From Anadara kagoshimensis (taxonomy: Eukaryota; Mollusca; Bivalvia; Arcoida; Arcidae), in NCBI GenBank assembly GCA_021292105.1, contig CM037868.1:35590876-35654875 (forward strand): a stretch of 64,000 bases of DNA, read 5' to 3'. Under the pieces are notes generated by a model, which saw only the letters and a program-made list of their open reading frames with translations, was not told where the DNA came from and searched no databases. Both the position numbers and the translations under genes were made by a program. Below, in pieces: positions 16,540 to 63,451 of this stretch (position 1 is its first letter; each line of letters starts with the position of its first letter).

Positions 16540-16582
<43 letters not shown>

Positions 16583-29434: not shown

Positions 29435-29465
29435 TCAATATATATTATATATATATATATATATA
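29435..29465. repeat. (TA)n microsatellite
   Basis: Alternating ta run preceding the TTGGGTC-type elements. Confidence 0.85.
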
Positions 29466-29477
29466 CTTAAACTTACC

Positions 29478-32740: not shown

Positions 32741-32911
32741 GTTTTTTAGCTCTGGACATTGTCCCTGAAGCTAACAAATACTGGGCACATCATTTAATTC
32801 TACGGTGTCATTGTCAATAACCGCGACTAACGGTTTGCCTTGTATATATTCAAACATAACAACTGTTACAGTCACGTCTGACCTACTGTCAATACTATTT
32901 ACATGTGTCAC

Positions 32912-34336: not shown

Positions 34337-34617
34337 GTCAAAATTTAAGCTATTTTGCCTCTTACCTGATTTACTTTCAATATTGTTGACCAGTTTTTTA
34401 TAGAACCCGGCTCGATCTCTGATATAGATGCCACAGATCTATTTCTTGGCAATATATCTTCTCATTATATAGATTCACTATCTGCACCATTGCAGTCTTA
34501 CCTTTAGTGTTCACTAAACAGTTCTAAAGCTTTCAAATAATCATTTGGTTTCAAAATAACATTCTTACCTCTGAATTTCTCTGGTATCTTAACAGGAACT
34601 AAAGTCATCTTATTTCC

Positions 34618-38935: not shown

Positions 38936-38967
38936 GTAGTGAAGCATATGTATTGAGTAAACTCAAA

Positions 38968-39022
38968 AATGCTATATATATATTATTGGGTCATGGCCCC
39001 AATAGTGCTATCTATAAAATAC
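38968..39022. mobile_element. MITE-4 fragment
   Basis: 'atgctatatatatattattg' then 'ggtcatggccccaatag', as in the 29.7-kb cluster. It interrupts the 24-bp field. Confidence 0.65.
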
Positions 39023-39029
39023 ACACACA

Positions 39030-39260
39030 CACACTGTCATACAACCACTAAAACACGTTGCCAACCACCCACACACGCTGTCATACAACCACCCAAACCA
39101 CTGTAGTACAACCACGCAAACACACTGTAGTACAACCACCCAAACACACTAGTTCAGCCACTCAAATACATTGCAGTATAACCACCCAAACACACTAGTT
39201 CAACCATTCAAACACACTAGATACCACCTAAACACACTGTTGTTCAACCACCCAAACACT
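39030..39260 (+). repeat. Continuation of the 24-bp field
   Basis: 'tagtacaaccacccaaacac' units, diverged. Sequence 'agtacaatgtactagtgtag' occurs both before (about 38,920) and after (about 39,265), so array end and MITE-4 were duplicated together. Confidence 0.8.
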
Positions 39261-39264
39261 GTAG

Positions 39265-39480
39265 TACAATGTACTAGTGTAGTGAAGCATATGTATCGAG
39301 TAAACTCAAAAATGCTATATATATTATTGGGTCATTGCCCCAATAGTGCTATCTATAAAATATACTGTTGGATTCCCCACCAATAATTCTGTTTATTGCG
39401 ACTATTTGAAGGGAATGTGTCCCTTTGACTATGGTTTGTGTTTTTAATGTTCATTTTCATTATACTCAATGTAAAACCGC
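39265..39480. mobile_element. MITE-4 copy, longer form
   Basis: Shares 'tattattgggtca', 'tgttggattccc' and 'gtgtccctttga' with 54,063-54,260. These define a common 3' part not present in the 29.7-kb copies. Confidence 0.65.
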
Positions 39481-42510: not shown

Positions 42511-42715
42511 CTATGTTGATTTCCCAAGCTTTATGTTGTTCAGCTTTGCTCGTATCTGTGCCAGAGTTCGCAATTGAAGAGAAGGACAGGTCTTTTGCAC
42601 TTCTATAAGATCACACGGTGGATGCTTATATTTTTTGTATTGTCCAAATACATCTTGAATTTTTTACGCAATACATTGGTTTCTTCTGGTGTCCATCGTT
42701 TTCTTTTTGGCTGTC
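42511..42715 (-). CDS. Gene B last exon: Myb/SANT-like C-terminus, frame break inside
   Basis: Acceptor 'acttttag' just right of 42,715. It starts GQPKRKRWTPEETNVLRKKF, the first helix of a Myb/SANT-like module (W plus acidic pair). As written, the entry frame stops at TAG 42,605-42,603. From about 42,645 the +1-shifted frame continues with HPPCDLIEVQ and LRTLAQIRAKL (the third-helix 'R-T-x-x-x-I-R' pattern) to TAG at 42,513-42,511. One missing base in 42,640-42,650 explains both parts. Confidence 0.7.
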
Positions 42716-45700
42716 CTAAAAGTATATTAGAAATTAGAGTTAGAATTACAGTGATGTTTCCTTTTTTACAAGATATGGTAAGTGTATGTACATAATTATA
42801 TTAGATTATAGAATCTACCACAAACTGTGGTCAAGATAGGGAAAAAATTTTGACTGATTCTATTTCTTGCACCACAAAGTACAATTTTAAACTCAAAATC
42901 AATTTGGACCAAACATATACATCTGATTTTATCGAGAAAAAAAACCTCTCCAATGAAAATTGCAATTATGACAAAGGGGATGTAAAGTTTATATATATGT
43001 CTTAGCAAAGACCCAAGATTGTTATACTGTATAAAATTGACCTAATATCACATCTGTAAACGGGAATTCTACACAGTTCTACAGCTTGGAAGGTGCAGAT
43101 ATGAACAATGACCTTTGTGTAGCAACCTGCCTCCAGCTTTCAACTGCCTGCTAAATAGCATGCTAACTAAAGGAACTACTGGTTACCTTCTCCCTGAAGG
43201 AAGACATGGGAAAATACATTGTCAGCTTAGTATGGACCAAAAAGGCCAGGGGGACCAGGATTAATCCGAACAATCCAGCTGGAAACTGCTGTTAAAACGA
43301 AAAAATAAGTCACCATCAACTCTCTGGCAGAATAAATCCTGCTGGAGAAAAAGGAAAGAACAGCAGGAACTAGCACAGACCACCCAGCCAGCTCCAGTGG
43401 TGATTGAAAAAGTCAAAGATCAAGGCAAAGACACAGATAGTAAGAAAGAAGAAAAAGGTTCCAGCACCTGTTTGGAAATTAAACCTACCAGCACCATTAC
43501 CATCTCCAACCATGCAACCAAAGCATACCATTGCAAACCAGTGGTCGCAATACCTACATCAGGTGATAAGCGATGCACAAAAAGAAACAGCTCAACATCA
43601 AATAACGTAAGTAGAAGCGCGAAGACAGCCGCACATCACTGCTCCAGCAACAGACTGATGAAATCAACAAAAGCAAAGATGTACAAGCAGCAGCACCACC
43701 TCAACTACCAACCATAGCACCCAGCTCCAGCTCCATCATCCAGAAGGAAACACAAAAAAGCAAAGGTCTGCACAATGACTAGATAGTCCATGTAAATAAT
43801 ATACTACATAGACAATAAACTACACCAAGGGCCATTTAAAGGAAAAATCACCCTAAAAACATCATGTGAATGATGTCATTAAACATCCACAGAATATGCT
43901 ATCAGCATTTAGTTTAACATAATCTTTTGTCACCATATACCAGTATAACTACCTTCATTTGTGTCACCTGAGCATCCCTGTTGTTCTATCATTTCCTCTA
44001 CATCCTCTTTGTCAACCTCTACATCCATCTCTTCATCAACTTCTACATCTCCCTCTTCGTAAACTACTGGTAATTCTTTCAAAATAATAGAAAAGTGAAC
44101 ATCAGTATTCAGAACATGTCTACCTAAACCATTATAGACCTATTGCAAGAAAATGAAACATTGATCATCACAAATATGCAATGTCTCTTATTTGGGAAAT
44201 AATAAAGACTACCAGATATGTTAGTGACATAAAAAATTAAGTAATGATCCAACATTAAAGTTGATTACTACAAGATGGCACTAGGAGAGATCAAGAAGCT
44301 ACATAGCAAATCAAATATCAGTCTTGTATTAATAATAAGCACACCATGGCTGAATAAAGGGCTGTTGTGGTCGAGGGGTTAAGACGTTAGTCTTCAAACC
44401 CAAGGTCTCTCACCACTGTGAGTTGGAATTTCCCTTACTTTTTCTTTACTGACTGGCTTGTTGTCAGTTTAATGTGACCGTTGTTGTCAGTATAATGTGA
44501 CCGAGTGGGGTGTTGTGTATATCTTGGCAATGCTTTTGTGAACTAACACCAAAATAGTTGTCATCAGTGCACACTAATACAAAGCACAAACTCATTACCA
44601 CAAGAAAATATGAAGACTAATCCTGAGATAAGTAAAAACTTGATTTCGTCACAAAAGGCTGAAAGATTACTGATGACATAAAACAACAGGCAACCAACCA
44701 ACCGACCATGGCAGAATAACACAATACAATACATTGGGCACATTAATAGACATGCCAGTTTTATTAGATAAAAGTCTGAGTGCAACCACTGTGGCAAAGC
44801 ATAACTTGCAAATTGGTTTCCAATACAAACAGGAAAAATAAAATCAAATTTTTATCCATACTTAGCAAAATTCAAACTCACATTTAGACAGTGATAAGAA
44901 TTAGACCATGTGTCCAAAGTAACCAACATGCTGATTTAATGTCACTACATGGTTTTTAATGTACTTATGTAAATGAATATATCTCTATCAAAAGAAAGAA
45001 AACAAACTAATTTATTCTTTAAATACTTGTGTGAAATATATATGTGAATATGAATGTCAAAATGTTGTTTTAAATTAGACAACATTGAAAATTTGATCTA
45101 TCAGAAGCATCTGGTGGGGTTATATTGACAAGAAAAATCCATATCAGTGAGTCTTGGTGTTTTTATATTCATGTTTTGGTATTTTAAATGGATTTTTTAT
45201 TGGTGTTTTACATCTCTTCAAGATTATTTCACTCATGAATATAGGGGCAGTATATTTTTTGGAGGGGGGTGTAGAGAAAACCAGTGTCCAGAGTAAACCA
45301 ACAACCTAGGATAAATTAAATCTTCCCACATGAAATAATTTGTCTTCGCTGTGGCTCGAACTTGTACTTCAGGTGTGAGGCTTTGTGATCCATACTAACT
45401 ATACAGACTTGCTACCTTCCAGAAGTACATGTAACTGGTAAATTTCCTACACAAGTCTGAAAAATAACCACCTATAAGATTCTATAGATAAATGCCATAC
45501 AACCCAGAATTTACTTTTTATCTCCACACTTAACTTACACTGAATAACTATTTCATAACTGAAAAACAACTTTTTAAGATTTTTCAGCCTATGTGACCTT
45601 GACCTTTGACACACTGACCCCAAAAGTAATCCTAACCAAAATCTGTTACTATGTATTCACATACAAAGTTATTTTGAAAAAAATTTGTTAGTTATCATCC

Positions 45701-48700
45701 AGAAACCAATTTGATGTTGCCCCCCACCCGCCTGCACACCTGCCAACATTCGTTAATCTAAGAACCAGGTTTCTACGAAAACCTGGCTAAAAATTTACCT
45801 AGTTACTAGGCTTGAAGTAATTGTTCTTTAAAAGGCAAATGTGGAAGAAAATAAAATTCTTAACTCTGATTGGTAAGAATTATGAACAGACCAACACCAG
45901 TTACCTCCTGCCACAATGAGAAAATATACAATGTATGTAAAGTATTATAGAGTAAATACCATCTAAGGTGATGTCCTCTAATTTTTTCCCTTTCCATTTA
46001 TTAACTTGCCCACTTTCAACAGCAAGAAGTAAATGAGAGACCTGTAATTCAGATGTAAATTGAATTAATGAATTGAATGATGCCAACTCACCATAGAACA
46101 AATAATAACAAAAGGAAAGCAATAACACAAGATTTGACTGACATATTTATCATACGATTCTTTGGAAATTTTCGTTAGATGCTAGGAAATAACATAAATA
46201 TTTCCGCATGTATGCAAAAATACTTTTTGCATCTACTTCAGATTAAGTGCAAATTTGATAAATTTTATTGTTCCCATGCAGAGATTTACATATACAGGTG
46301 TGGAAATATACTTGTAAAAATCCAGATGCAAATCACTTATCATTGATCGTTAACTTCAAAAGACCATCAGTTGATCTTTGACCAAAGAGCCTCATTGGCA
46401 AATGTCAGCATCCTTACATCACAACAGACAATCGGAATAAATTCAGCCAGTTTCAATGGTTAAAAGAAAATAAGTAAGCATTAGCAAAGAAGTGGTATAG
46501 TATTATATTGCATACCCACACAAGCAAAGCTTTCGAGAAAACTACCGATGACACAACTTTGGTCTCAACCAAGCCCAAATACACATTTTTAAAACTTTTC
46601 AATGATAAAACTATTGGAATATGGATAATGTTCTTAATAGAAATTAACTGTGGTCAATATACATTTACCTTTGTAAGTTCTACTGTTGAATGGCTCAACC
46701 TATAATTTTCCTTGTGGGTTTTCACATCATGACCAAGATGGTTGGCCAGCATCTCAAATTCATTTGTTGTCATATCCAAAATCTAAAAACAAGCAATACT
46801 TGTTATTTTTGTGCTGCCAAAATTATTCAAATTTTTAAACGCTTTACATGTTTGTACTACACTTTGGACACTGGCATGCCAACTTGATGTGAGAAATCAA
46901 TCCTTGCAATCTTTTCCTATAACCACAGCGTAATTTAGTCTGCAACACTCTAAAACTCTTCCAAAATACCTGTATCTTAGTTGTTCAATTATGATGCCTT
47001 TTCTACAAAGGCAAATGCTGACAAAATTCTGGATATGTCAGCAAAAGGGAAGGGGTATATAAAGTGTTTTTCCAAAATACCATATTGGCATTTGTTCATG
47101 TTTGTTGTAAAATGCCAAATAACTATACAAAGTTTTGTTTTAGGCATAACTTTCATAAAATAGTAAATTATAGAATATAATCCAAAATGCAAGATAATTA
47201 ACTTGATACGAAAAATTTTCAAATCAATATTACATAACATGAATTTAAGATCCTCTATAAATAATGGTCATTGCTAATGTAAACAAACTTATATTGTTCA
47301 ATTATGATACATATGATGAGGAATTGAAGGTATTATATGAGACATTCCAATTATAGTTGTTTTTTAATCAATGAAATCCAAGTCCAAACAAAACATTGAA
47401 TTACTCTGAAAATAGTCACACAGTACCTCAGAAAATAAATGATTTCACAGTAAACAAAACATACCTGGGAAACAGTTGCAATATATTTCCTCAGAGAAGT
47501 AGAGGTGATTCTCTCCGGATGCTGCAAACCAGGGCACTTAGAAACAATTTCTGCCATTTCAGTGTTGCCACTAAATGGGGTATCTGCATTTAATCTTGCA
47601 AAAATATATGGGTTGGTTTCAGGTATTCCAACTTCTTTTCTGAATTTTATTAGCAAATCAATCGCAGATTTTGCATCTGGTGGCAGTATAACATATGCAT
47701 TAACATTTTTGCGTGATTTTCCCGCAGATATCACCATATCCATCCTACAAAAAAAGATTTTAATGACATATGAAGGTTTATACTATCAACTGAGTTGCAA
47801 CATGCCCCAGTGCACACAATGTAAACTCACTATTATACGTCCATAAATATATCACACCCTGTTTTTCCTTTTTCATTTAATTTGATAACATTGAGTAAAA
47901 TGAACTAAATAATTTCATTTTGTATTTCAAAACACAACAGAATTTAATTCTGGTTCAATCTGTATGTTCCCTAGTTTGTCTGTGTTCAGAGAAAACATTT
48001 TTTCAATTTTGTAAGTTCATTTTGATCTTATTGTCTCCCCAGTTGAAAACAACTATTGATATATTGATCAGAAAGGATTGGCACCATATCGATATGAAAA
48101 CAAAAGTGATTAGAAACATCAGTGGAAAACAGTGTACTATGGGTTGATGAAAATTTGTTTAATCTGTTAGCACCAGTAAAGCAAGACTTTTCTTATTAGC
48201 TATTGATTTTACCTTTTATTGATTTTTATTGAAATCAATCAGTTCTATATTGCAAAAAAAAGTATAATGCATCAAAATGTTCTGTTATAACTTTTCTGGC
48301 GTATTTTGTCAAAGAATATGGCAAATGTACAGATAGATAAATGATGTCATGATCGTGTGACCATGGCATCCATTCACCTTACAGTTACCTTTAAATTGTA
48401 TTTGATATAATTACCTGTCTGCAAGTAATCTGTCCACTTCTGATAAAGCAAGTCCAAATTCTCCATTGTCCTCATCTTTCCAATTTGGCCTCTGTAGATA
48501 TTCACAAACTTTCAAATCTTTGACCTCAGCTCTTCGTCTTTTGTTGAAGAGGATTAAACGACACATTGTCAGTTGTGCAAGGTCTGTCCAATGGCAAGAC
48601 AGTCTAGTTTTAGTCAGAGCAATAGAACTGGTTTCCATACTTGTCTGAATGTGTGCAACTAGTTTTTTTAAATCATCTGTTAGGGGAATTGTTTGAACTT

Positions 48701-51700
48701 TTGTTCGCTTCACAGCATTAATACGCTTAAGACATACTGAATTTACACGGTAGTTCCATTCAGCTTTCATCAATTTTTGAAAATTAGTACCATCTTGATT
48801 CCTTCTATCATCATTTTCACGCAATGCATGGCCAACCTTAATTTGGACAACATGATTTAACAGGTTCCCTATGAACTTACCAAGGGTCAATGCTGGATTG
48901 TCATTTCTTAATGACAATGCCTTTGTACATTCAACAACTAAATCAAAATTTTCAGGTCTCACAAGATAATCAAGACTGATAATAGTTTCTGGCCGCATCT
49001 TCTTGGCTTCTAGAATCAATCTTGCTAAAGTTCTACAACATTGGGAAACCCTATACATATCATTGATTTTTTGATCTCCTTCTTCCCCTAAGGAATCCAC
49101 TCTCAAGGCAGCATAACGTTTGAGTAAGGAGTCATCTTCTACAATTGCCTTAACAGTGTCATTCTTCATTCTGGATAGCATTTTCACAACAAAGCTATCA
49201 GTCTCCTCTTGTAATGCACTACGAAGCAAATGTTGTCCATGCCGCACTGCATTATTTGAAGTTTCATTTTCATCAAGACTTGCATTTTCCCCTGTTCCCC
49301 GAAAACAACAATTTCTGTTATGCCACCAAAGTGATGTCCTCAAAATAAATTTTTTGCAATATTCACATGGTAAATAGTCAACTGGCCTCTTTTCCTCATA
49401 ACCATCTCTCCGAGCAACCACTAGACAACCTTCTTTCTTTTGCAAAACATTAATATTATGTTTGAAGTTGCCTTCATTGGCTAAGAGCTCCAAATTGTGT
49501 AGTCTTTCTTTTGATTTCTTTGGAAGCAACAACACTTCTGATACTCTGGTTCTGTCCCTGTGAACGGTAAGGAGATGTCTTGATATTTTACTAGATATTT
49601 CCTTTTCACAAAAGGTACAATAATTCTTTTTGTCATATATTTGCTTACATCCTTCTTTCTTCTCTCCTCTTTGTAGTATATATACATTTGGATATAAATT
49701 ACTTGACAAACCATTCTTGATAGAGATAGAATCTGACATCTCACCATCTGAATTTGTAATTTCAGCATCATCTATGAAAGAGTCATTTATTGTCAAAGAT
49801 TGATAAAGAGGTTTGGTATTGTATGGCATATTTGTGTCGGAGTTTGACAGGAAACTATCTTCAACAAAATTAGCTTTGTCCATGAAAGTATTTTCAAGGA
49901 CAGGATTCAGGGGAACAGCAGGTTTTTTCACACGTTTTCTCTTGGTAAATCGCTTTTTTCTTTTTTGTCCAAGCTTAAATGAAGATGATAGTCCTTCATT
50001 GGAAAAGCTATCATATTCATCTGAAGTGCTGTCTGTAACAACATAGTCAGGATCTTTGACTTTGTCACTGTCTGTTTCAAAAGTCTGTTCAAAGTCACTT
50101 AAGTTTTCATCATGTGAATGTTGTACAATATCATCTTGTGTAGGTTGTACCATATCATCTTGTGTAGGTTGTACAATATCATCTTGTGTAGGTTGTACCA
50201 TATCATCTTGTGTAGGTTGTACAATATCATCTTGTGTAGATTGTACAATATCATCTTGTCTATGTTGTACCATTTCATCTTGTGTAGGATGTACCATTTC
50301 ATCTTGTGTAGGATGTACCAATTCATCTTGTGTAGGTTGTACAATATCATCTTGTCTATGTTGTACCATTTCATCTTGTGTAGGATGTACCAATTCATCT
50401 TGTGTAGGTTGTACAATATCATCTTGTCTATGTTGTACCATTTCATCTTGTGTAGGATGTACCATTTCATCTTGTGTAGGATGTACCAATTTATCTTGTG
50501 TAGGTTGTACAATATCATCTTGTCTATGTTGTACCATTTCATCTTGTGTAGGTTGTACAATATCATCTTGTGTAGGTTGTACAATATCATCTTGTGTAGG
50601 TTGTACCATATCATCTTGTATAGGATGTACCATTTCATCTTGTGTAGGTTGTACAATACCATCTGGTGTAGGATGTACCATTTCATCTTGTGTAGGATGT
50701 ACCATTTCATCTTGTGTAGGTTGTACCATTTCATCTTGTGTAGGTTGTAGCAATTCATCTTGTGTAGGTTGTACAATATCATCTTGTGTAGGTTGTACAA
50801 TACCATCTTGTGTAGGATGTACAATACCATCTTGTGTAGGTTGTACCATATCATCTTGTATAGGATGTACCATTTCATCTTGTGTAGGAAGTACCATTTC
50901 ATCTTGTGTAGGTTGTACAATATCATCTTGTGTAGGTTGTACCATTTCATCTTGTGTATGATGTACCATTTCATCTTGTGTAGGTTGTACCAATTCATCT
51001 TGTGTAGGTTGTACTATATCATCTTGTGTAGGTTGTACCATTTCATCTTGTGTAGATTGTACAATACCATCTGGTGTAGGTTGTACAATATCATCTTGTG
51101 TAAGTTGTACCAATTCATCTTGTGTAGGTTGTACCAATTCATCTTGTGTAGGTTGTACTATATTATGTCGTGCAGGATGTACCATATTATCTTGTGTAGG
51201 TTGTGTAGGTTGTACAATATCATCTTGTGTAAGTTGTACCATTTCATTTTGTGTAGGTTGTACAATATCATCTTGTGTAGGTTGTACTATATTATGTCGT
51301 GTAGGTTGTACAATATCATCTTGTGTAGGTTGTGTAGGTTGTACAATATCATCTTGCGTAGGTTGTACCATTTCATCTTGTGTAGATTGTACAATATCGT
51401 CTTTTGTAGGTTGTACCATTTTATCTTGTCTATGTTGTACAATATCATCTTGCGTAGGTTGCACAATATCATCTTGCGTAGGTTGTGCAATATCATCTTG
51501 CAAAGGTTGTACTGTAATATCATGAAAAGGTTGTACCATATTATATTTTGTAGGATGTACCATACCATCTGGTGTAGGTTGTACAATATAATCTGGCAAG
51601 GGTTGTACTGTATTATCTGGCAAAGGTTGTACTATATTATGTTTTGTAGGATGTACAATATCATCGGGTGTAGGTTGTACAATATCATCTTGTGTAGGTT

Positions 51701-54700
51701 GTAAAATATAATCTGGTAAAGGTTGTACTGTAATATCTGGCAAAGGTTGTACTATATTATGTCGTGTAGGATGTACCATATTATCTTGTGTAGTTTGTAC
51801 CATTTCATTTTGTGTAGGTTGTACAATATCATCTTGTGTAAGTTGTACCATTTCATTTTGTGTAAGTTGTACCATTTCATTTTGTGTAGGTTGTACAATA
51901 TCATTTTGTGTAGGTTGTACAATATCATCTTGTGTAGGTTGTGTAGGTTGTACAATATCATCTTGTGTAGGTTGTGTAGGTTGTACAATATCATCTTGTG
52001 TAGGTTGTACAATATCATCTTGTGTAGGTTGTGTAGGTTGTACAATATCATCTTGTTGTAGGTTGTACAATATCATCTTGCGTAGGTTGTGCAATATCAT
52101 CTTGCAAAGGTTGTTCTGTAATATCATGAAAAGGTTGTACCATATTATGTTTTGTAGGATGTACCATACCATCTGGTGTAGGTTGTACAATATAATCTGG
52201 CAAAGGTTGTACTATATTATGTTGTGTAGGATGTACAATATCATCTTGTGTAGGCTGTAGCATATCATCTTGTGTAGGTTGTAAAATATCATCTTGTGTA
52301 GGTTGTACCATATCATATGGCAAAGGTTGTTGCATATCTTGTGAAGGTTGCACATTTTCATCTGGCAAGGGCTGTACCACATCATCTGGCACAAGTACCA
52401 TATTATTTGGCAAATGTGGTACCATATTGTTTTTTGAAGGTTGTATCATACCATCTAGAGAAGGTTGTACCATATCATCTTGTGTAGATATATCATCTTG
52501 TGTAGATTGTACTATATCCAGGGACAAGGGTCTTACCATACCATCTTCTGTAGGTTGAACCATATCATCATGCATAGGTTGTGTAGAATATTCAACCTCC
52601 TGTTGAGGATGTTGCACTGCTGTACCCTCTGGAAGTATAATTAGAGAATTATAAAATTTCAACTGATTGATTGCAAAGTTTGACCTTGACATTGATACTG
52701 AAAGCATCCCCAACTTGAAATGATAAACTTATCGAAACTTAACAGTGAAATAAAGAGTTTATTATTTTTTTCCATTGAATTTCCTGGAAAAAATATTTTG
52801 TGGAATTTTTTTTTCACTAATTGATATTTAAAATTTCAATTAATGTTTTAAGAAATTTCACAAGCACAACATATGCAGTGTCTGTTTCTGCTTTCGTTTC
52901 CAAATTAAAAGATGAGAATAAGACTTCACAGACAATGCTTACACCTTTTCAGCAGGATTAATTGTAAAGAATTTATCAAAAGTCATTTAAACATTTTTAC
53001 ACATTTAGGTTTTAAAGTTTATTTTCAGCCAAATTTCAAAAAGTCAAATGACTGGAATGGCAATATTATTTATTGTGGAATAGTACCATTTTTGATAATA
53101 AAATATTCATTACCTCTGGCCCAGGACAAATCATGTCTGAAGCAGTTCAGAAATACTGGCATTTTTTTCAAACATTCTGCAAAAAGAAATAAAAAAAACT
53201 ACATTCTTGAAGGATTGTAATAAATACTCCTTAATTGATATGAATATGAGATGCTATGCATTATTTTCAATTTTTTATTTTACTCTTCACATAATTAGTT
53301 TAACAAGATACTCACTTAATGACAGTTATTGTATAAAATCGTCATTTATTATAAATAAACAAAAGCTGTCGGTGTAACAGACACATGCCCCAAAAACATA
53401 ACTGACAAGGCAAAAAAATAAAAATTCTTTTGTGTGATTTGTCAAAATGTAATTATTAAAAACTATTAGAAAATAATTCATTTTTTATATTTGTTTTGCC
53501 TAAAACTATCAAAATAAAACATTTTCTGTTACTTTTCCTGTTACTCATATTGATGAACTAATTAACAGGGTAAATTAGTTTCACCAAAAGGCATGGGATA
53601 GAATAATTGTGCTAGCTATCAGGTGTTTATATTTCTGATTTTATTTCAGAGGTTTTAAATTAATTATAATATAGCTGAAACCACTTTATTGCATATCTGT
53701 TAATAAAGTTACCATGTTAATTGCACAATATAATGAAATCCAATACCATTTTCCATTATACTCAATAGAAATATTATCTCATTAAATTTGCATTGTAAAT
53801 TTGGCACATATCTATTAATTACATAGCAAAATTAAAAAAATTTTGAGAAAAAAAATATAGACATTTATATATTTTAACTGAAGATGAAGTAAACCCACAC
53901 CCTGGTTGTGCTGATCTGTGATAGAATATGTTGGATTTAGTAGTCTTTCTAAATAAATAATAAATTACAAATAGCAGGAAAGAACTCAATGATCAACCAA
54001 CTGCAAGTTGAGGCTTGTTAAATCGACTAGTTCCATGGTAAAAGATAATTCTGAAGCCTAAGTTTTGAGCAAGACCCAATAGTGCTATATATATGTATAT
54101 ATATATAATATATTATTGGGCCATTGCCCCAATAGTATCTACAAAATATACTGTTGGATTCCCAACCAATAATGCTACCAGTATGTTTATTTTGACTATT
54201 TTATGGTAATGTGTCCCTTTGATCATTGTTTGTGTTTTCAGGTTTATTTTCATTGAAACTCATTAAACTGCACTTTCAGCTTGTTGAGTTCTTACCGTCT
54301 ATTTATGATTTATATACTTTAGAATGTCAACTGAAATTAATACAAAACCAAATTGCATATATCTGAAGTGTAGTTCTATGATACACTGTAAAATATTCAC
54401 ATATTTCCTTTTTTCATAAACAAGAGGCTCATGGGGCTGTAGCCAAAGAAGTATGTTGTTTATGTCAATGAAACAGTAGATAACCTTTAACCTTATTCTC
54501 CACTATGCAAGTACACACCACTGTAGAGCTGCAAACAAATATTAGAAATAGGGATGTTCTGTTACTCCAATTTTCTGACAGTATTCAAATAATATCCATT
54601 CTGAACACTTGATAACACTAGATCAACATCAAACTTGCTGAATCACCACAAATAGTACTTAACAAGACAGAAAATGGAATATATTGAAAATATTTGCTTG

Positions 54701-57700
54701 ATCATTTTCAGTTTAAATTGTTGATAAAATATACTGCACTGTTAGTTTTTTTTTTTACAAAAAGAATAATAGTTGCATTTTTTCGCTGTTTTTCTATCAT
54801 TCTGTAAATTTTCTTAGAACATTGAACAATAGATCATTTTCAGGTTCCCCGTTTCGTGCTAATTCGGAGATTTATAATCTACTTAAGTCAAGTGATGTGC
54901 AGGCATGTATACTTTTGGTTTCCTATGGCATCTATAGAAACTGTCATTTCACGATATTGTATATAATGGAGACCTGTATTTTTCTCACCAAATTATGTTT
55001 TTTTTTTGTTTTTTTTTTTGAATTTATTATTATTATTATTATTATTTTTGATTGATATGAACTAAAATGATTTTTTTTTGTTACACAGTAAGGACACAGC
55101 ACCAAAGGCCAACTACTGGAATGGCCAAGCAACAAATTAGAACGTATATGACCAACAAGACCCCTTAAAGAAAATGTCTCAACCAAGCAGAAAGCTAATC
55201 CCCATTCAAAAATCTCAGTCACACATATTTACCACTTGGGTTAATCTTTTGCATTGTGTATTTAATCCTTTGTTAAAATGGCAATTATCACAAAAGATTA
55301 AAAAACATTTGCCAAAAACATTCAAGGCACATTTTCAAAAAAAAAAACAACATGTATAAATGACTGCATTGATTTTACACTTGAAAAACCGAAATCATCC
55401 ACAACACAATCACAAACATACAGCTCATACAAACACAAAAGCACATGTAAAGCACTCATAAACATCACACCTGCAGGATCATTCAACTTTATTTCACATA
55501 TTTGGGGAGGTAATACATCAGACAGATACATACCGGTAACAAAAGAAAGTTGAAGTTATGGTAGACAGAGGGGTATTTAATTAGAGATTTATAATTAGAA
55601 AGAAGAGCTACAATAAATATGTAAACGGGGTAGAGGCAAATAACTGAATGTTGCGAATGTTTAAAAAGAAGTATAGCTTGTCCAAGATTAAAAATATTTA
55701 GTATCTTAGCTGGTGCCATTCCACTGACTATGAAATCGGAAGTGAATCAAATTTTGAAAGTGTGTTTTTGTGTGTGTAATTTGCACAAACCATTACTAAC
55801 TTAGTATGTAGTCTTGTTATAGGTGTTAATTTTAAAAAAATACTGTCGTGGTACTAGTGGACCAACAAGGGTTTTTCATTTCAATGTTGATTTAGTATTG
55901 TAATATCTTTTTCTTTGTATTAATACTTTACTGGTGTAGGTATGTATTAAGAGATTACAGATACTGTATGTGTCATATCATTTGTATTAATACAGTGTTA
56001 ATAAAATACAGTCATTGGTCATTACTGCAGGTGGTTTTTAAAAAATAGGTTTTACTGTATATTTCTTACCAATAATTACCAAAATTATCTTTATATATGG
56101 GAACACTTGTATGATTGCATGAAAAACTTGTACTTGAATAAAAGCAGAATTTATACTTGAATAAAAGCGGAATTTTAGGACAATTTTATGCACTATTTTT
56201 AAAAAAAATATTTCATTTTGCTTTAGCCAGAATTGATTATATCGCATAAACTGTTGGCATGTCACGAGTGGGAGGTTGTATTTTCACTGACTCAATACTG
56301 GGATATAAGTAATGCCTGTAGTTGGATTAAAAGTGAAAAATAATGATTGAATAATGAGACATTGAAAACAAAAAAATTCTTATTTGTTATGTTATTAAGG
56401 GGTGGAGTAATATTGTTTTAATCCCCAGTCAAGATTATTTCACATATATCAAAGATGTCAACTCTAGAAATGTTGAGGAAATGAGAGTGCCTAGAGAAAA
56501 TCAATAACCATGGCAAGAGAACTGTCAAACTTTGTCAACCTAATGACTAGGTCAATATTATCTTTTATATTAGGATTTGGAGCTAGGCAGTGAGAGGATC
56601 TATGATTTGTAAGTTCATTTTTTCAACTCACCATTGGATCAATAAGGCCCCTTTTAACCAAGATGTACCAGGTCTAAATTAAAAGACTTTCATTTGTACC
56701 CTCTACTTAAAATTTAAATATAAGTATCAGAGGAACCTCAGAATGACAAAATAATTGTTTATTTAAATATTTTGCATGGAATTTAATGAAAGTGCAGGGT
56801 ACATAAGAAAGTTTAGCCATAATAGAAATGACACTTGGTCATTTGAAAAAAAAGACTTGCACAACCATCTTGCTTGAGCATCCACCGGACAATATAGAAC
56901 CAGATGTGGTCACAAGGATCCACACAATATAAGGGTCTGCATTCTGTCTTGTTTCAGGCAAACAAGTAGCTTTTGTATACTTGCAAATGTCACTATTAGG
57001 AATATTAGCAGTCCAAATCATCTATAATGATTAAACATCATCATCTTTTGCCGAGAACAATTACAAAAATTTACCATGGTACAGAACAAACAAAGCATAT
57101 TAATAGCACACAATTTATTGTATGCATATACTGATACAGTAGAGAAGAGTAAGTACCTGTGGATGTGTGGCAACCCTGGAACAATAGATGGCCAAGCAGC
57201 TTTGTCAGTAGAGCTTTCTGCTAGTATTAGGAAGGCCCCGGGTTCGAGTCGGCTGCATTTTTCTTTTTACTGTTACATTTTGGGGCTTGCTCAACCCTGG
57301 GAAGTGACTGGCCAATATTTTGTTCCTAGAGTGAAATCTAAAGGTTCTGATTCAATGTAGTTGATCAACTACAATCAATTCATGAATTGGAGAGAGAGAG
57401 AGAGAGAGAGAGAAAAAAAACCACAAAAATGAAGGGAGGAAGTGACAGACCAGGCTTGATAGGTGACATAGCTCAGTTGTTACAGCATTCTACAAATATT
57501 GAAGGTATGTCTATTTGAATCCTGGTTTGGCTGCTACATTTTTCTTCTCTCCTGTTACAGATATTTCTGATCATTCCCTTTTGCATCACTTAGAGTGCTA
57601 CTGTAACAACTAGTATTGGATTTTTCTGTAGTTATTTTATTTTTTAATTTTGAAAAAGTGAAGTCCAATTAAATTATTTTTCATACAGAGAATGGCAACG

Positions 57701-60700
57701 AAAATAAGCATATTAACATCTTGTTCATCTTCAGTCAACATGCCTATATGTCCAGCAGTGTACAACCTATGGTTAATGTCTTTTCGGTTTTATTTCAATG
57801 TCTTCTTTTTATTTGCAAGTGTGAAGCAAGTACATAAAAACATTGTATTGCTTAATGTCTGGTAAAAACCTTGAGTTGTATCCCCAACCATGTATCTACC
57901 CAAGCTCACATAAAACGTTACCATTTACAGTTTCACTAAAAAAGAATTTTGGTAATCACTCTCTGAATCAATATTTTTCAGCTGCAACTCTTTTGCCAAC
58001 TGATGAACCCCAATTAAATCATTTTTCAGATACAAATGCGACAAAATTCCTCTAGATTTCAAATAGCTCTTCAAATCATTTACCTGCTCAGTAGCAAAGT
58101 CTTTCATCACAAGATAGACATTAAAACCTTATATGCCTGCACTTTTCTTACTACAATATGCCTGTTTTACCTCTAACTGCTGATAACCCAAAAATATTCT
58201 ATTGAATAATATTCGAAGACTGGTATAGATATTCGAAAAGTACTATTGGTATTTGTTGCAGCTCTACACCACTGTAAGTCCCATTTTGAATGAATTTAGT
58301 ATCCAGGAAAAGAAATGTGGTAGGTATTCCTAGATTCCAAGATGGACTAATGCAAAACAAGATTTGTTTGTGAAACAATATAAAAACAATATAGCCCAAT
58401 CTTTAAATCAAAATAAAAATAACATGAAACAAGAGGTGTTTCCACTACAGTGTTCTGCAAAAATTGAGATGTGACAAACATTTGGCAATTAAAATCATAA
58501 AGACCCAGAGAAACTTTATTGGGTCTTAAAATGATTGACCAACCTTTTAAGTTGTATTTTGCAGGTACTTAAAATGAAAGTTTTACATACTTTCTTATTG
58601 ATGATTTTTCCACAAGGTAAAAACCAAAGTTAAAACAATTTAACAATACATTTGAAACTTGAATACCTCTGAAATTTTGTTTTCATTGGCCAAACATTTT
58701 CCATAAAACCCCCCAAAACATGGACACTTTATAAGGAATTGTGAAAACATTGACACTCTATAAGGAATTGTGAAAACTGGGAAGCGGAAACACCTTTTAA
58801 AAATATCGAAATATATTTAAGACAACTGCAACGAACAAAACAATACTCAAACCAACCAATTCCTATATCTTCCCACTCTTTATGAGAAATGCATTCAATA
58901 TCATCCAAAGATACTCTGAAACTGTATACAAGCAAAACAACCATTTTATTTTATTGTTTAAGGAATTTCATGACTGAAAATCATTCAACCGGAAATATGG
59001 GTCTGTTAGGGGTTACCCTATCTACCCTATTTTTGTCCCAACTCTTAGTTGCATATTAACAAGAGGCCCATGTGGGCCTTAACTCTCACCTTAATGAGCT
59101 ATCTTGTAGTATTTAACTGAGTTTTTATAAATTAAAGTCTCTTTTTGGAGCCCCATAGTCCAGCATTATAGATTTAATAATTATTTGTACTACAAATGCT
59201 TAATCTGAAATAAGTAAGGTCTAGCTATTGTACATTAGTCATTTGTGAGTTTTAAATAATTTATAGGAGTCCTTCTACAGATACCCCATTTGAAGTCCTG
59301 TTACCTGCATTTGTTTAGATTAAATAACACTTGTATTTATAATATCTAATGTCTAGCTAATGCACATGAGTGATTTATGATTTTTCAATAATCTATAGGG
59401 CCTTGGCTTAGATGAGCTAAAAGTTTACAGAGAAAGAAAATATTTTTCATAACAAATGATGAATTAATAATAATAATATCCCCAACAGTTTGTCATTAAG
59501 ATGACTAAAATTCCCTGCTTATCTGTTAATCTGACATAGGTTATGAAGATCATATGTATAGTTTAAACACATAGAGATTGATAGGACCTAAAACATTTAT
59601 TTTGTGAATATGGGGAGGGAGATAGGGTTAGTGGGGGAGGGTGGGGGACACAATTTGATTTGTCTGGCCTTAAAGCACATGTGAAATGGGTTAGGGGAGT
59701 ATGGGAAAATGGGAGGGGAGAGTCCAGTTTTTGCATAAACATCTTAACATGGGATAATATGGTTAAAATTTTCACCGAGACATGATAGATTAGGCAATCT
59801 GGCTCACCTCTGAAGACAAATTGATAAAACAGCTTTGTCAAATTTAAAATCGCCATATTGGATTTATAACTTGTGGCACTAAATGTATTCTTGCAATAAT
59901 TCGTTTTTGCAAACTGTTATGAACCAGATAGAATCACAAAACCTAGGATGAGAAAGGCTACAGCAATTACTGGCTGATAATGACCTATGTCACTTAGGAA
60001 TCGAGGCCCTGCTAACCATAGCAGAGTATCTATCTTTCACAAAAAGTATATCATTAACAATCATAAATTACCAATGTTTACCACCTGATTTTGATCAGAT
60101 TTGACTTCCTGTTGGCATTTAATAGTTATGATAGGTGTGCAATAACCTTGACGTATGTAAAAATTTAAGTAAATCCCACAAATCGAGGATAATTTTTGTA
60201 AAACAATCGCATCAAATAACACTATCAGGTGAAGTATAAAACAATCCTAGCAAAGACTGATGTTAGGTGTTTAAATGCATTTCAATTGCACTATAAATAT
60301 CCCTTATCATATATGACAGATGGTGTAATGAACTCACTTTCTGTCATCAGCCAAACAATATACATTAGCCTGCTTCTGGTCTTCATACACTGATTTAACT
60401 TGAACTGGCCATTTCATTTTCTTGGGTATACCTGGAAGCTTTGCCCACATATATTTCTCCAACATGGCATCTCTTTCATTGTTGTTATCCTGTAAATAAA
60501 GTTAACAAGTAGGTATTACAAAACTGAAAAGCGATAAACATGAGGAATAATCAAAGATTACAATTACCCCCTCCTCCTCCCCCATCCCCGCTCATCAAGC
60601 ACATCTCTGAAACTCCAAAGTCTCTTAACATGTTTTATTGTAACCAGCCATATATGTAGTACATTAACCAAATGAAGATGCCAACAAGTTGAGCTGAGCA

Positions 60701-63451
60701 ATGACAGACACATTCTGGCCTGTCTAATTATGGAAGAAACATGAATATAATACTTGGATGTTTTTGTGATGTTTCAAAAACATCCAAAGCAAGCCTATCA
60801 GACTTGCAATAACCATGGGATAACTGTTAATCAATATTCTTATGTATGACCTATTGGATTTCTCTTGAATACATTTAAAGGCTTCTTTTTAAATGTTGTT
60901 TTATACCCTTTCAAGATTATTTCACACATATCTGGGAAGTCAATTTTAAATGTTGGAGGAAGTCGGAGTACCCAAATAAAACCATCGACCCACTGTGAAA
61001 TCTTTCTCAGATAAGACACGAGTCAGATTCAAACACGCAGCCTCAGTGCTGAAAGACCTCATGATCCATACATTAGCAACATTAGTAGTGGCAGGCACAA
61101 AAACTGACACAGTATCAACAAAGAAAAAAGATTAAAAACTCTTCCATTTAAAGCACAACACCCTCCCATATGTTTTGGCATTAATATCAACAAGAAACAC
61201 AGAGCCATAATCGTGTCTCTGCATCTTCCTCAATTTGAGATAAAGATTATTTACCTTCCTCCACCAAAGATTTGTTGCATCACCATAATCATATAGCAGT
61301 TCTGCCCCTATGTCAATGTCTGCTTTGGCAAAAATGGCAAGGTGGCATCTTCCATCCACCACAACTTTTTTAACTGCACAGTTGGCATCTTTGTCAGAGT
61401 CATTTACCAGTGAACCTGCCCTTCCACACATGTTGGTAGCATCAATGCTGCAAGCACAAAATAAACATTTCAATTTTTTTCTCTCCAAAATAAAATCAGT
61501 TAACATGCTTGAATACTTATAATCTCTCAAAAAGTAACAACCAAGTTAAACATTTCTGTGATGTAATTTGAAAATGGCCTGGCGTAAACTTAGAATTCGA
61601 ATAGAAAATAAGATAAGGCTGGTCAGAACAGTGGAAACAACACAAGTCAATGTTCAGCAATAACTTGTGTATATATTTGTGTTTTTTCAAATAACTTACA
61701 AGTGCAAGTTATCAAAATCAATAACTTTAATAAGTTACACCACTTAGTTACTACTTATAAGCATGTTTTTGTGTATGTGAAAATTAAAAATATAAATGCT
61801 GAGTTCAAGCCTCTGCGAGGACAAATTATTTCATGCGGAAAAAGTTTGTCAATAGTCTGGGCATTTCGGTTTCCTCCACCAAAAAGTGACTACCCATGAG
61901 CAAAATAATCTTGAATGGGCATAAAATATCATAAAAGCTAGAAATGGTAGTAATACAACCATGAAATTTGTCTGCACAGACTAATGTATCAGTGTACCAA
62001 TTTTCACCAAAGTTGGACAATAAGTCTAATAGATCTATACAAAGATTGTCTTGAAGTACCAAGAAATCACATATGTAAGGCAGGAGCTGTCTATACTCAT
62101 TACTGAGGTGGACTTTCATATATTTCATAAATATTCAACATGATCAAAGAACATACAGCTAGCTAAACAATAAATGTCACTCTGGTGAACTCCAACACTT
62201 CCTCCCATATCTTAACAAATGCTGACAATGACCCAAGAATGACAACACAACTTTCCAAATTCTTCAAGACCAAGCCAAACTTGCATGTATACATAACATA
62301 TAATTACCACATATCTTTATCATTGTGTCTAAAATAATACATGAAGCATCTTGGATACAAGGAATTTCTTTGACGCCTCAAGTACTTTTCTTCTTGCAAA
62401 TCTGCCTCTTCCTTACAAAGTAAATCACCTGCATATTCCAGCAGGAAATCTCCTTTCTGAAATGACTTGCTTGTAAAAACACCATATCCTAAAATAATTA
62501 AGAAAGGACTTTTTACTGTTTCATGATTGATGTGTAAGTTACATACATGTATGAATCATGAAAATAGATTATACATGCAAACATTACATATTATATGTAT
62601 ATGCATGTATATATCAATAATAGAGTATTGTGCATATACAGTAAAACCTAGTTGTATTGCCCCTCAATAACTTTGCTACATCACTTATTGCCACACCATT
62701 TAGAATTTCCAAAATTGATTTCTTCTATGTTTTTCTTTATAAGTGTCCCTCAATATATAACACCAAACTTCCTTATAATGCCAAAATCTCACTGAACAAA
62801 TGATAGCAATGAATCAAGGTTTCACAGTATTTGATGATCAAGAGTAGCACTTGGAAGACTGGATTTATGTTATCACCTTTCCTTCTTCCATATTGTGTTG
62901 GATATCATCCTGAGAAATCAATATCAAATCGAGATCCGGGATTTAATTTCAGACAATAGAAAACACTTAAAAACTTTAAAATCAGCCAAATGGACACTTA
63001 CTTGTCTTGAATGTGCCTTGAATTAAATTTCTGCTCAAATAAGGGTTGGAAAAATTTTTATTACATGTTTATGCCATTTTGCCACAAAAAAGTGAAATAC
63101 AGTGGTGACACAACTAATATGTGGTACCCGTCAGATGATTTATCTGACTTCAAGTGACTTAAGATCATGTTTACACATTACCATAACAAGAGATCATGAT
63201 TTTATCTGATCATCTGATGCTCACTATGGTAAAGTTGTAGTAAGCAATTTTACTCAGCAATATTAAGCAATATCTTTTAAGTTGTTTGAGCTATTACCAG
63301 TGCTTACGTATTACATATATATAGATGGGTACATACCTTTAATCTTGCTAATATATTTTATATCAAAACCCTCTTGGTCTTTTCCTTCTTTTATTATGCG
63401 AACAGCCTTGGCTGTAGGGTTTTCTCTTTTAGTTCTTTTCATTTTCAGCAT
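42511..63451 (-). CDS. Gene B: SET / octapeptide-array / zinc-finger / tyrosine-recombinase-like / SANT protein
   Basis: Minus-strand exons followed by ag/gt sites and phase: 63,451-63,337; 62,488-62,308; 61,447-61,255; 60,489-60,338; (candidate 58,915-58,857); 53,176-53,114; 52,628-48,415; 47,744-47,465; 46,782-46,669; 46,041-45,960; 44,075-43,953; 42,715-42,511. With the candidate exon, and two 1-base breaks corrected, the total is 1,927 codons including the stop. Domain order: SET, Asn/Gln/Asp/Pro octapeptides, C2H2 and C2HC fingers, recombinase-like catalytic domain, acidic linker, Myb/SANT-like end. From memory, unnamed fish proteins share SET, fingers, recombinase-like and Myb parts. 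Chromatin or DNA binding is inferred. Alternative: two genes, with the SET part ending at a TGA just after 60,338. Confidence 0.7.
43080..43760 (+). mobile_element. Possible LINE ORF1 relic in gene B intron
   Basis: Less AT-rich than its surroundings, with Lys/Gln/Ser-rich overlapping frames. The phrase KSPSTLWQNKSCWRKRK near 43,300 recalls basic ORF1-like proteins of invertebrate non-LTR elements. No reverse transcriptase nearby. Weak call. Confidence 0.25.
43953..44075 (-). CDS. Gene B acidic linker exon
   Basis: Acceptor 'ttgaaag' right of 44,075, donor 'gaag/gtagtt' left of 43,953. In phase 1, out phase 1. Encodes about 40 residues, half of them Asp/Glu (e.g. VDEEMDVEVDKEDVEEM). It joins the recombinase-like part to the SANT-like end. 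Confidence 0.8.
44340..44705 (+). mobile_element. SINE-B copy in gene B intron
   Basis: Head 'tggtcgaggggttaagacg' and 'ggtctctcaccactgtgag', then a body and a tail ending in 'aaccaaccaacc'. Diverged from the 3,161 copy. Confidence 0.7.
45195..45320. repeat. Bivalve tail-repeat fragment
   Basis: 'ttggtgttttacatctcttc', 'aagattatttcactcatg' and 'gtagagaaaaccagtg' in the usual order. Confidence 0.5.
45960..46041 (-). CDS. Gene B exon following the recombinase-like core
   Basis: Acceptor 'gaattacag' right of 46,041, donor 'gatg/gtattt'. 82 nt, in phase 0, out phase 1. Encodes VSHLLLAVESGQVNKWKGKK and then LEDITLD, the helix that follows the catalytic tyrosine segment in this family as I remember it. 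Confidence 0.8.
46669..46782 (-). CDS. Gene B exon with recombinase-like LGH and Tyr motifs
   Basis: Acceptor 'gtttttag' right of 46,782, donor 'aaag/gtaaat'. Exactly 38 codons, phase 0 to 0. Encodes FEMLANHLGHDVKTHKENYR. 'LGH' matches the second catalytic His box and the Tyr of ENYR sits where the nucleophile is expected in tyrosine recombinases. Confidence 0.85.
47465..47744 (-). CDS. Gene B exon with recombinase-like T-x-x-R box
   Basis: Acceptor 'ttttgtag' right of 47,744, donor 'cccag/gtatgt'. In phase 2, out phase 0. Encodes GKSRKN (candidate beta-hairpin Lys), NPYIFARL and STSLRKYIATVSQ. The last corresponds to the H-x-L-R-x-x-x-A-T box of tyrosine recombinases, with the His replaced by Thr. 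Confidence 0.85.
48415..52628 (-). CDS. Gene B giant exon: octapeptide array, zinc fingers, recombinase-like N-part
   Basis: Acceptor 'acttccag' right of 52,628 and donor 'gacag/gtaatt' left of 48,415. The first about 840 codons are degenerate octapeptides (VQPTQDDI, VQPTQDEM, VHPTQDEM) encoded by a 24-bp unit. After 50,118 come an acidic segment, a basic KRKKRFTKRKRVKK stretch, a C2H2 finger (CTFC...H-x4-H, about 49,561-49,625) and a C2HC finger (CEYC...H-x3-C, about 49,310-49,370). A helical domain follows, ending in FNKRRRAEVKDL at about 48,520-48,555, the R-x-x-E box I of tyrosine recombinases. One extra base at 52,051-52,060 breaks the frame inside the array. Without that correction the longest frame is 1,259 codons and opens with about 45 out-of-frame residues. 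Confidence 0.85.
50118..52600 (-). repeat. Coding 24-bp minisatellite (about 100 octapeptides)
   Basis: The plus-strand unit is 'cttgtgtaggttgtacaata' plus 'tcat'. Variation is mostly at codon positions that swap Ile/Met, Asp/Glu and Pro/His, and the frame is kept for about 2.4 kb apart from the break at 52,051-52,060. Short 'gtgtaggtt' duplications give QPTQPTQ variants, multiples of 9 bp. Older, more varied units (VQPLPD, VQPSLDG) lie at the N-terminal side. Confidence 0.95.
53114..53176 (-). CDS. Gene B small exon before the array
   Basis: Acceptor 'ctttttgcag' right of 53,176, donor 'agag/gtaatg' left of 53,114. 63 nt, in phase 1 and out phase 1, which matches the phase of the giant exon. 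Encodes CLKKMPVFLNCFRHDLSWAR. Confidence 0.65.
54063..54260. mobile_element. MITE-4 copy in gene B intron
   Basis: 'ttattgggccattgccccaa', 'tgttggattccc' and 'gtgtccctttgat' as at 39.3 kb. Confidence 0.7.
54420..56390. other. Gene B intron, mostly unannotatable
   Basis: A molluscan-repeat 5' end (caagaggctcatggggct) at 54,420, a T-rich/(ATT)n stretch at about 55,000-55,050, and short open frames without supported homology. A further small gene B exon could be hidden here. Confidence 0.4.
56395..56540 (-). repeat. Bivalve tail-repeat fragment
   Basis: 'ggagtaatattgttttaatc', 'cccagtcaagattatttcac' and 'gagtgcctagagaaaatc' in standard order. Confidence 0.65.
57175..57570 (+). mobile_element. 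Two tRNA-like SINE heads in tandem, (GA)n between
   Basis: Heads at about 57,180-57,275 (B box gggttcgagtc) and about 57,465-57,560 (acatagctcagttgttaca). Both continue 'gctgcatttttctttt' / 'gctacatttttcttct' and 'ctgttaca'. A (GA)n run lies at about 57,390-57,412. Confidence 0.6.
57925..58110 (-). CDS. SAP-like exon, possibly of a separate or dead gene
   Basis: The minus-strand frame encodes EQVNDLKSYLKSRGIL and then KNDLI, followed by a helical segment (HQLAKELQL). This resembles the SAP-type helix-turn-helix that opens several transposon-derived proteins in bivalves (memory, unchecked). It ends at an in-frame TAA with no strong donor, and I find no downstream domain. It could be a relic in the gene B intron, or an extra gene B exon: an acceptor at 'ataag' about 25 bases upstream would suit the phase, but it has no pyrimidine tract. 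Confidence 0.3.
   Translation of the reverse strand: MMKDFATEQVNDLKSYLKSRGILSHLYLKNDLIGVHQLAKELQLKNIDSESDYQNSFLVKL
58857..58915 (-). CDS. Candidate gene B exon linking the SET part to the rest
   Basis: The acceptor 'acagtttcag' is good; the donor 'attg/gttggt' is poor. 59 nt would enter in phase 2 and leave in phase 1, exactly what is needed between 60,338 and 53,176. Encodes VSLDDIECISHKEWEDIGI, which looks like real protein (balanced, helical). Accepted only as a candidate. Confidence 0.35.
59058..59421 (+). repeat. Molluscan interspersed repeat, both ends
   Basis: It starts 'acaagaggcccatgtgggcc' and ends 'gatgagctaaaa', the same ends as the family at 41.6-42.5 kb and 54.4 kb. Internal deletion copy. 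Confidence 0.6.
60338..60489 (-). CDS. Gene B exon 4, post-SET segment
   Basis: Acceptor 'tatttacag' right of 60,489; donor-like 'agaaa/gtgagt' left of 60,338. Encodes about 50 residues including EKYMWAKLPGIPKKMKWPV. If the donor is not used, the frame ends two codons later (AAG TGA), giving a stand-alone SET protein. The strong gtgagt favours splicing. Confidence 0.7.
60885..61060. repeat. Bivalve tail-repeat fragment
   Basis: 'tttcaagattatttcacaca', 'aatgttggaggaagtcggag' and 'taccc' in standard order. Confidence 0.5.
61255..61447 (-). CDS. Gene B exon 3: SET domain C-terminal half
   Basis: Acceptor 'tgcttgcag' right of 61,447, donor 'gaag/gtaaat' left of 61,255. In phase 2, out phase 0, 64 codons. 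Contains CIDAT, SLVNDSDKDANC (the N-H-S-x-x-x-N-C box, with Asp in place of His), DGRCHLAIFAKADI and GAELLYDYGD. These blocks are those of KMT5A-like SET proteins. The YDYGD catalytic Tyr is present. Confidence 0.85.
62308..62488 (-). CDS. Gene B exon 2: SET domain N-terminal half
   Basis: Acceptor 'attattttag' right of 62,488, donor 'tgtg/gtaatt' left of 62,308. In phase 1, out phase 2. Encodes GYGVFTSKSFQKGDFLLEYA, the G-x-G cofactor-binding opening of SET domains, then an Arg/Glu-rich insert and CFMYYFRHNDKD. Confidence 0.85.
62640..62825. mobile_element. TIR-like element fragment in gene B intron 1
   Basis: 'acagtaaaacctagttgtat' and 'taacaccaaacttccttata' resemble the element inserted in the Gypsy at 31.4 kb. 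The right end is unclear. Confidence 0.45.
63337..63451 (-). CDS. Gene B exon 1 with start codon
   Basis: ATG at 63,451-63,449 (a second in-frame ATG lies 3 codons later). Donor 'aaag/gtatgt' left of 63,337, out phase 1. Encodes a basic N-terminus (MLKMKRTKRENPTAKAVRII) leading directly into the SET opening in exon 2 (ISKIK/GYGVF). The placement and length agree with SET proteins in which the domain starts near residue 40. No promoter element identified. Confidence 0.75.

Follow-up and report, generated by a model that had tools for sequence, protein, structure and literature searches.

The locus described here is the main gene of a mobile element and not a lone host gene. In the window, a stretch of 64,000 nt of the Anadara kagoshimensis genome (C12:35,590,876-35,654,875), comparison of copies and termini delimited a giant element that begins at 29465, reaches the window end at 64000 and continues for 1,687 bases past it, for a total of 36,223 bp, with its main gene on the minus strand. 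We estimate a probability of about three in four that it is a full-length, intron-bearing DNA transposon of ~36 kb which combines a KMT5A-like SET domain, zinc fingers, a tyrosine recombinase (YR)-type domain and a SANT-like tail. A sequence-only reading of the window had described these parts within one gene; the finding that goes beyond it is that this SET-carrying transposon is giant, was active recently and has diverged sister families elsewhere in the genome.

Copy number, which the sequence-only reading had named as a check, was read from the ends in the genome searched (1.115 Gb, 36 contigs). The left terminus ACTTAAACTTACCCACTTATTGGGTC (29465..29490, plus strand) was found by genome-wide matching at 34 places spread over 13 contigs (33 exact and one with a mismatch) and the right terminus at 31, and the element is present in about thirty copies. 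Twenty-seven of the 34 left termini are directly preceded by (AT)6, and an AT run lies just beyond 28 of the 31 right termini. In the window, the (AT)n run at the left end occupies 29441..29464 (start approximate) and is the presumed insertion target. Because both flanks are (AT)n where they were read, a target-site duplication is indistinguishable from the repeat. Pairing of the 34 left ends with the 28 right ends carrying an AT run, of 31 known, gave 26 correctly oriented end-to-end copies of 21.7-57.7 kb (median 36.5 kb) and left 8 left and 2 right ends unpaired. The three further right ends, which were outside the pairing, face three of the unpaired left ends as judged by eye. The SET exon and the recombinase exon both lie inside 25 of the 26 paired copies, the exception being the 21.7-kb pair on C6. 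With the recombinase exon as query, at least 84 matches were obtained in the whole genome, the best 20 being 98-100% identical.

Two copies on C8 (36,451,425 and 36,451,523) are arranged head to head, as if the AT run next to one had served as the landing site of the other. One of the two spans 57.7 kb and therefore holds ~20 kb of extra sequence. Their left termini are only 72 bp apart, an arrangement that would suit segmental duplication or array amplification in place of transposition; nevertheless, the same sharp ends recur on 13 contigs, mostly next to (AT)n, and the flanks are unrelated in the four copies for which they were read, which makes such an origin extremely improbable.

Four other copies, on C2, C3, C13 and C18, were compared at length with the window using ten-kilobase pieces around each. 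Alignment begins at 29.44 kb in the C13 and C18 copies, at 30.04 kb in C2 and at 30.13 kb in C3, the last two values being the edge of the pieces; all four extend to 63.9-64 kb. An extra stretch interrupts the C13 alignment at 63,924; the match picks up again past it, and the far end of the C3 copy reads N. The main aligned blocks of the four copies are 96.2-99.9% identical to the window, introns included, with the array at 50.1-52.6 kb masked and the lowest values over the 38-kb minisatellite (37407..39269), which copy comparison showed to be variable. The flanks of the window, C2, C13 and C18 copies are unrelated to one another. The element thus displays the dispersed copies, common ends and, in the four copies where flanks were read, unrelated surroundings of a transposable element. 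Near-identity that includes the introns indicates recent movement at the DNA level, and the carriage of introns in the compared copies argues against movement via spliced RNA. Recent mobility is therefore strongly supported.

The sequence-only reading had proposed an exapted or still mobile element-derived chromatin protein. The second half of this proposal held, with 26 paired copies, ends on 13 contigs, near-identical copies and unrelated flanks; an exapted chromatin protein is not needed. A single conserved host gene for a chromatin protein, exapted from a transposon, would agree with the multi-exon structure and the host-like SET domain, but it has to face 26 end-to-end copies, left ends on 13 contigs and a window copy with a frame-breaking deletion in the last exon. 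It is very improbable overall and, as a reading of the window locus, is refuted by the multicopy element, while a domesticated copy elsewhere is possible.

Besides the main gene, the element contains broken Ty3/Gypsy-type pieces of reverse transcriptase, RNase H and integrase (31593..34438, minus strand), which match RVT_1, RT_RNaseH, H2C2 and rve in several broken frames. These pieces are common to all five compared copies and therefore entered before the recent spread. Among ten other ORFs sampled in the element, none reached the Pfam cut-off for any family. An integrated large DNA virus would also be large and have a recombinase gene. However, the main gene carries introns, and the longer ORFs scanned (10, 8 and 6 ORFs) yielded none of the genes for capsid, DNA polymerase or packaging, so that a viral origin is hardly credible. 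One scan of viral contigs, reaching close relatives only, returned no relatives. Outside the element, open frames resembling host-gene exons were seen at 14,670-17,064 of the window (plus strand), ~12 kb from the left end of the element, and a 36-bp minisatellite of 14 copies, 97% alike, lies at 12,724-13,242.

The main gene starts with an ATG at 63,451 in a first coding exon (63337..63451) defined by start codon and donor only. It is followed by SET exon a (62308..62488) and SET exon b (61255..61447), both with AG/GT borders and Pfam and phmmer matches, and by exon E4 (60338..60489), also with AG/GT borders. Further downstream, a large exon at 48415..50111 comprises recombinase exon 1, with box I (RRAEVKDL), and two finger-like C2H2/C2HC motifs recognized by eye. 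Recombinase exon 2 (47465..47744; GK and LRKYIAT boxes), exon 3 (46669..46782; an LGH-x8-Y box whose tyrosine is the putative nucleophile) and exon X1 (45960..46041) are supported by AG/GT borders and by relatives. The joins between exons 2, 3 and X1 were confirmed by relatives that match through both junctions in a single open frame, at C6:2,419,907 (query 13-160) and C3:66,665,141 (1-160). The series ends with the acidic exon X2 (43953..44123; AG/GT borders and phase) and the last exon X3 (42511..42715; acceptor only), Myb/SANT-like by eye (W..EE). All these exons are on the minus strand. The chain of phase-consistent ag/gt exons proposed from the letters alone was thus confirmed, except that X2 starts at 44,123, in phase with X1, instead of the out-of-phase 44,139, and that the acceptor near 50.1 kb is not fixed. 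The zinc fingers and SANT-like end of the same proposal are readable by eye, but gave no Pfam match above cut-offs.

In X3, the window carries a one-base deletion absent from the four other copies. The second half of X3 has an open frame of 50-96 codons in 32 other copies, unlike the first-half frame read in the window, which fits a deletion private to the window copy. A query with the last exon found one clear relative outside the close family, at C2:13.6M (59%).

The SET domain predicted by the sequence-only reading is present: Pfam SET was matched at every one of its 105 positions (E 2e-18), and phmmer against solved structures gave KMT5A/SETD8 as the best match (E 3.9e-27). With SET exon b as part of the genome query, at least 33 rows spanned the whole exon at 97% and without stops, and diverged SET exons were matched too. 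In the KMT5A alignment, GRLINHS is replaced by GSLVNDS, that is R by S and H by D, with the YDYG tyrosine kept. These positions correspond to R295 and H299 of KMT5A, which we take to be essential. Two of the active-site residues compared are thus replaced in the predicted protein and the catalytic tyrosine is kept. Since the residues aligned to R295 and H299 are S and D, methyltransferase activity appears doubtful, and with it the earlier suggestion that this SET domain methylates lysines; a role as a nucleosome contact would be preferred to an enzymatic one. A further multicopy SET-exon family was noted at ~20 places (e.g. C2:36,606,370 and C31:191,286), 56% identical to SET exon a and with near-identical scores; no recombinase partner was found for it among the matches listed.

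The tyrosine-recombinase-like domain stood as far as its catalytic boxes are concerned. The boxes RRAEVKDL, GK, LRKYIAT and LGHDVKTHKENY occur in the same order as those of Escherichia coli XerD, with the same H-to-Y spacing (LGH-x8-Y) and the same LR-x3-AT spacing; in box II, T is found at HxxR where XerD has H. A two-box core pattern, written, like the other box patterns, after the sequence had been seen, was matched by 79 of 80 XerD loci, and in 168,307 decoy residues it matched E. coli xerD and nothing else. A slightly looser version gave no match in 300,000 shuffles. The four-box pattern is matched by the element protein but is a poor classifier, since only 7 of the 80 XerD loci match it.

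Profile methods, on the other hand, did not back this assignment. Pfam, PHROGs, PDB sequences and BLASTP to XerD all returned no recombinase match. An HMM built from the 80 XerD sequences gave -1.1 bits for the element protein against 7.1 bits for the best of 2,000 shuffles, many of which outscored it. For the 46.6-49.5 kb region, where a profile comparison had been suggested, hhalign against the XerD profile returned a probability of 0.7%, and in the wrong region. Structure prediction for part of one recombinase exon was uninformative (pLDDT 40.6). A transposon that only resembles a YR element, being moved by another enzyme or carried by another element, would agree with this lack of profile support. 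It would leave aside the four boxes in XerD order, of which LR-x3-AT and LGH-x8-Y keep XerD spacing, and the distribution of identity at diverged loci: among those found by both recombinase queries (C2:13.6M aside), exons 2, 3 and X1, which include boxed parts, are 31-48% identical whereas the preceding exon is 27-32% identical. We consider this reading unlikely and, as judged by the boxes, the downstream domain is probably a tyrosine recombinase. Ordinary YR matches are also numerous in the genome (at least 148 for PF00589 and at least 152 for DUF3504); several are open and fall in identical-score groups, so that other YR elements are probably recent too.

The SET and recombinase parts are also found together at diverged loci. 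Among the matches listed, the diverged set comprised 39 SET loci and 71 recombinase loci, which were paired when on the same strand and at most 25 kb apart. In at least 14 cases SET lies upstream of the recombinase on the same strand, and none shows the wrong order or strand, where 0.03 was expected; 25 diverged SET loci have no recombinase among the matches listed. At the 14 loci, recombinase identity is 27-32% in the first exon (where listed) and 36-48% in the boxed part. In several diverged families a single open frame, several hundred codons long, covers the recombinase parts; intronless relatives at C13:9.128M and C36:0.120M, for instance, have frames of ~870 aa. Conservation of order and strand at 14 diverged loci indicates that the SET-recombinase pairing is old, and on the basis of these similarities we assign the loci to diverged sister families of the element in the same genome.

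Between the two parts lies a 24-bp minisatellite (50107..52582, minus strand), which the sequence-only reading had taken as an array of ~100 octapeptide units within the protein. This was contradicted by copy comparison: of 20 copies, the window included, 17 have a break in the frame leading into the fingers. The break lies 23-325 codons upstream of window position 50,111 in 14 copies and at the border of array and exon in the other three; the array differs among copies, three of which carry deletions or changes at that border. In three copies (the window, L013 and L015) the frame stays open as far as the fetched piece reaches, and the window array itself shifts frame further up, near 52.05 kb. 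Copy L018 is open when anchored at 50,111 and broken with a second anchor; it was counted as broken because of a small deletion between the two. The anchor at 50,111 left out copies L015, L017 and L019. The 24-bp unit by itself is open in two of the three minus-strand frames, with long ORFs over the array on both strands. An assembly error in the repeats may account for some of these frames. As the breaks stand beside invariant exons, the array does not look like part of a constrained protein and is probably not protein at all; we take it to be intronic, and an acceptor just downstream of it, in phase with E4, is possible.

For the earlier claim that one gene joins SET to fingers and recombinase, no bridging exon was confirmed between 60.3 and 50.1 kb. 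Candidates at 58.9 and 53.2 kb are unproven, since the 103 matches of a joined query were all at close-family loci as judged by eye, with none at diverged loci. A ~1-kb segment at 56,881-57,924 is found in the window, C13 and C18 copies and is replaced by ~11 bp in C2 and C3; it contains a piece resembling, by eye, a decayed SWIM-type finger and adjoins a SAP-like frame at 57,925-58,128. These SAP-like and SWIM-like pieces were rejected as domains: Pfam gave none above cut-off, and 56,881-57,924 is missing in two of the four copies. The C13 copy also has ~0.7 kb of additional sequence near 54,551.

The element could therefore hold two genes, one for a short SET protein that stops just after 60,338 and one for a recombinase starting near 50 kb. 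Exon E4 reads into a TGA if its donor is unused, ten kilobases including the minisatellite separate the two parts, and the bridging query matched the close family only. Against this, E4 has a GT donor in phase 2, and the constant order and strand at the 14 diverged loci fit one gene as well or better. Published Hydractinia and sea urchin genes with an N-terminal SET and long homologous C-terminal ends would, if they are relatives, be fusions. We hold two separate genes to be possible, at rather less than even odds, and a SET-to-recombinase fused protein, as predicted from exon phase and from the diverged loci, to be likely.

We further compared exons with the rest of the element. Over 28,317 bp aligned in five copies outside both arrays, 44 substitution sites were counted, as well as gaps at 248 sites, one of them exonic. 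Leaving the window aside, the four remaining copies differ at 0 of 3,179 exonic bp versus 37 of 25,138 bp elsewhere (p ~0.009 under equal rates). When the private changes of the window are included, the sites are 2 exonic versus 42 others, which is not significant (Fisher p = 0.23); the contrast between exons and other sequence is therefore modest. In 13 of 19 other copies, the same two substitutions are the sole differences from the 1,697-bp recombinase exon of the window. Such near-identity indicates that the spread was recent.

The ends also carry a repeated motif. The 8-mer ATTGGGTC occurs 21 times in the element, where base composition predicts 0.6, with nine copies in the first 600 bp and eight in the last 600 bp (17 of 21 at the ends). 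Near the left end, the nine ATTGGGTC/GACCCAAT sites lie at 29483..29946. Judging from this clustering, they are likely binding sites, presumably for the recombinase or the fingers. An internal GACCCAAT beside an AT run, end-like in aspect, was noted at 54,060-54,140 within the long intron and is perhaps the relic of a nested relative.

Taken together, these features suggest how the element might move. The protein would bind the ATTGGGTC clusters through its fingers or its tail and bring the two element ends together. Recombination within the flanking AT repeats would then release the element as DNA, perhaps as a circle, and the released element would be inserted into another (AT)n run. The SET domain, not surely an active methyltransferase, could act as a chromatin or nucleosome contact aiding targeting, timing or escape from silencing. 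Both the 24-bp array and the Gypsy pieces inside the element would be passengers.

In the open literature (PMC), a scope that leaves subscription papers and Repbase outside, no description of an element combining SET/KMT5A with a tyrosine recombinase was found in the texts consulted, and neither 'crypton' nor 'SET domain' occurs in the main text, as available, of a review of giant eukaryotic transposons (PMC6431247). We propose tentatively, at a little under even odds, that the element belongs to a superfamily of giant DNA transposons in animals that has not yet been described. Its members would long have had a KMT5A-like SET domain within their transposition apparatus, as a chromatin handle of their own, and would integrate at (AT)n; many cnidarian and echinoderm KMT5A-like genes, some active at zygotic genome activation, would be relatives.

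Among known systems, Cryptons are, in the available text of PMC3212892, YR DNA elements with short direct end repeats as recombination substrates and a proposed circle intermediate. The likeness lies in a YR-type DNA movement without reverse transcription, and the (AT)n flanks could be such end repeats. The introns kept in five copies and a broken Gypsy relic as sole reverse transcriptase agree with DNA-level movement without an enzyme of that kind of its own. The element differs from Cryptons in its 36 kb, its many introns, its SET domain, fingers and tail, and its subterminal motif clusters; in Pfam, DUF3504 found no match in the element protein and, by eye, the DUF3504 matches listed elsewhere in the genome include none at element-family places. 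If of YR type, an intron-bearing element of ~36 kb with a SET domain would enlarge the range of sizes and genes known for animal DNA transposons.

DIRS and Ngaro retrotransposons also encode a tyrosine recombinase, and use reverse transcription. The present element shares the YR, whereas it keeps its introns (five copies) and has no reverse transcriptase or RNase H of its own next to the YR, only broken pieces of a Gypsy relic with a DDE-type integrase. Fungal Starships, as portrayed in the sources available, resemble it in very large size and in a YR gene as the likely mover. Their captain domain is DUF3435, located at one end and accompanied by gene cargo. Here, in contrast, the element is in an animal genome, SET shares a transcription unit or gene pair with the YR, no cargo cluster appeared in the ORFs scanned, and DUF3435 has no Pfam match in the element protein. 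In SETMAR, as its available descriptions have it, a SET domain is likewise joined to a transposon enzyme, the mariner transposase. SETMAR is a single domesticated primate gene and its enzyme is of the DDE type, whereas the SET pairing described here is that of a multicopy element and of several diverged families. A chromatin enzyme fold would thus be standing transposon equipment, as opposed to a one-off fusion like SETMAR.

The expanded KMT5A-like genes described from Hydractinia, Hydra and sea urchin resemble the element in being multicopy, most with an N-terminal SET (PMC10368294). The text available reports up to 65 KMT5A-similar genes in Hydractinia, of which 13 early ones are not adjacent to each other, and 61 KMT5A-like genes in sea urchin; most have an N-terminal SETD8-like SET, and the C-terminal ends of the longer ones are homologous between the phyla (E < 3e-43) (PMC10368294). 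There they are interpreted as host genes coding for H4K20 methyltransferases, and the main text, as available, does not contain 'recombinase', 'integrase' or 'transposase' (PMC10368294). By this analogy, the Hydractinia and sea urchin expansions may be relatives of the element. Multicopy KMT5A-like gene families may then be mobile elements, which would call for another reading of how they expanded and of the surge in their expression in the early embryo.
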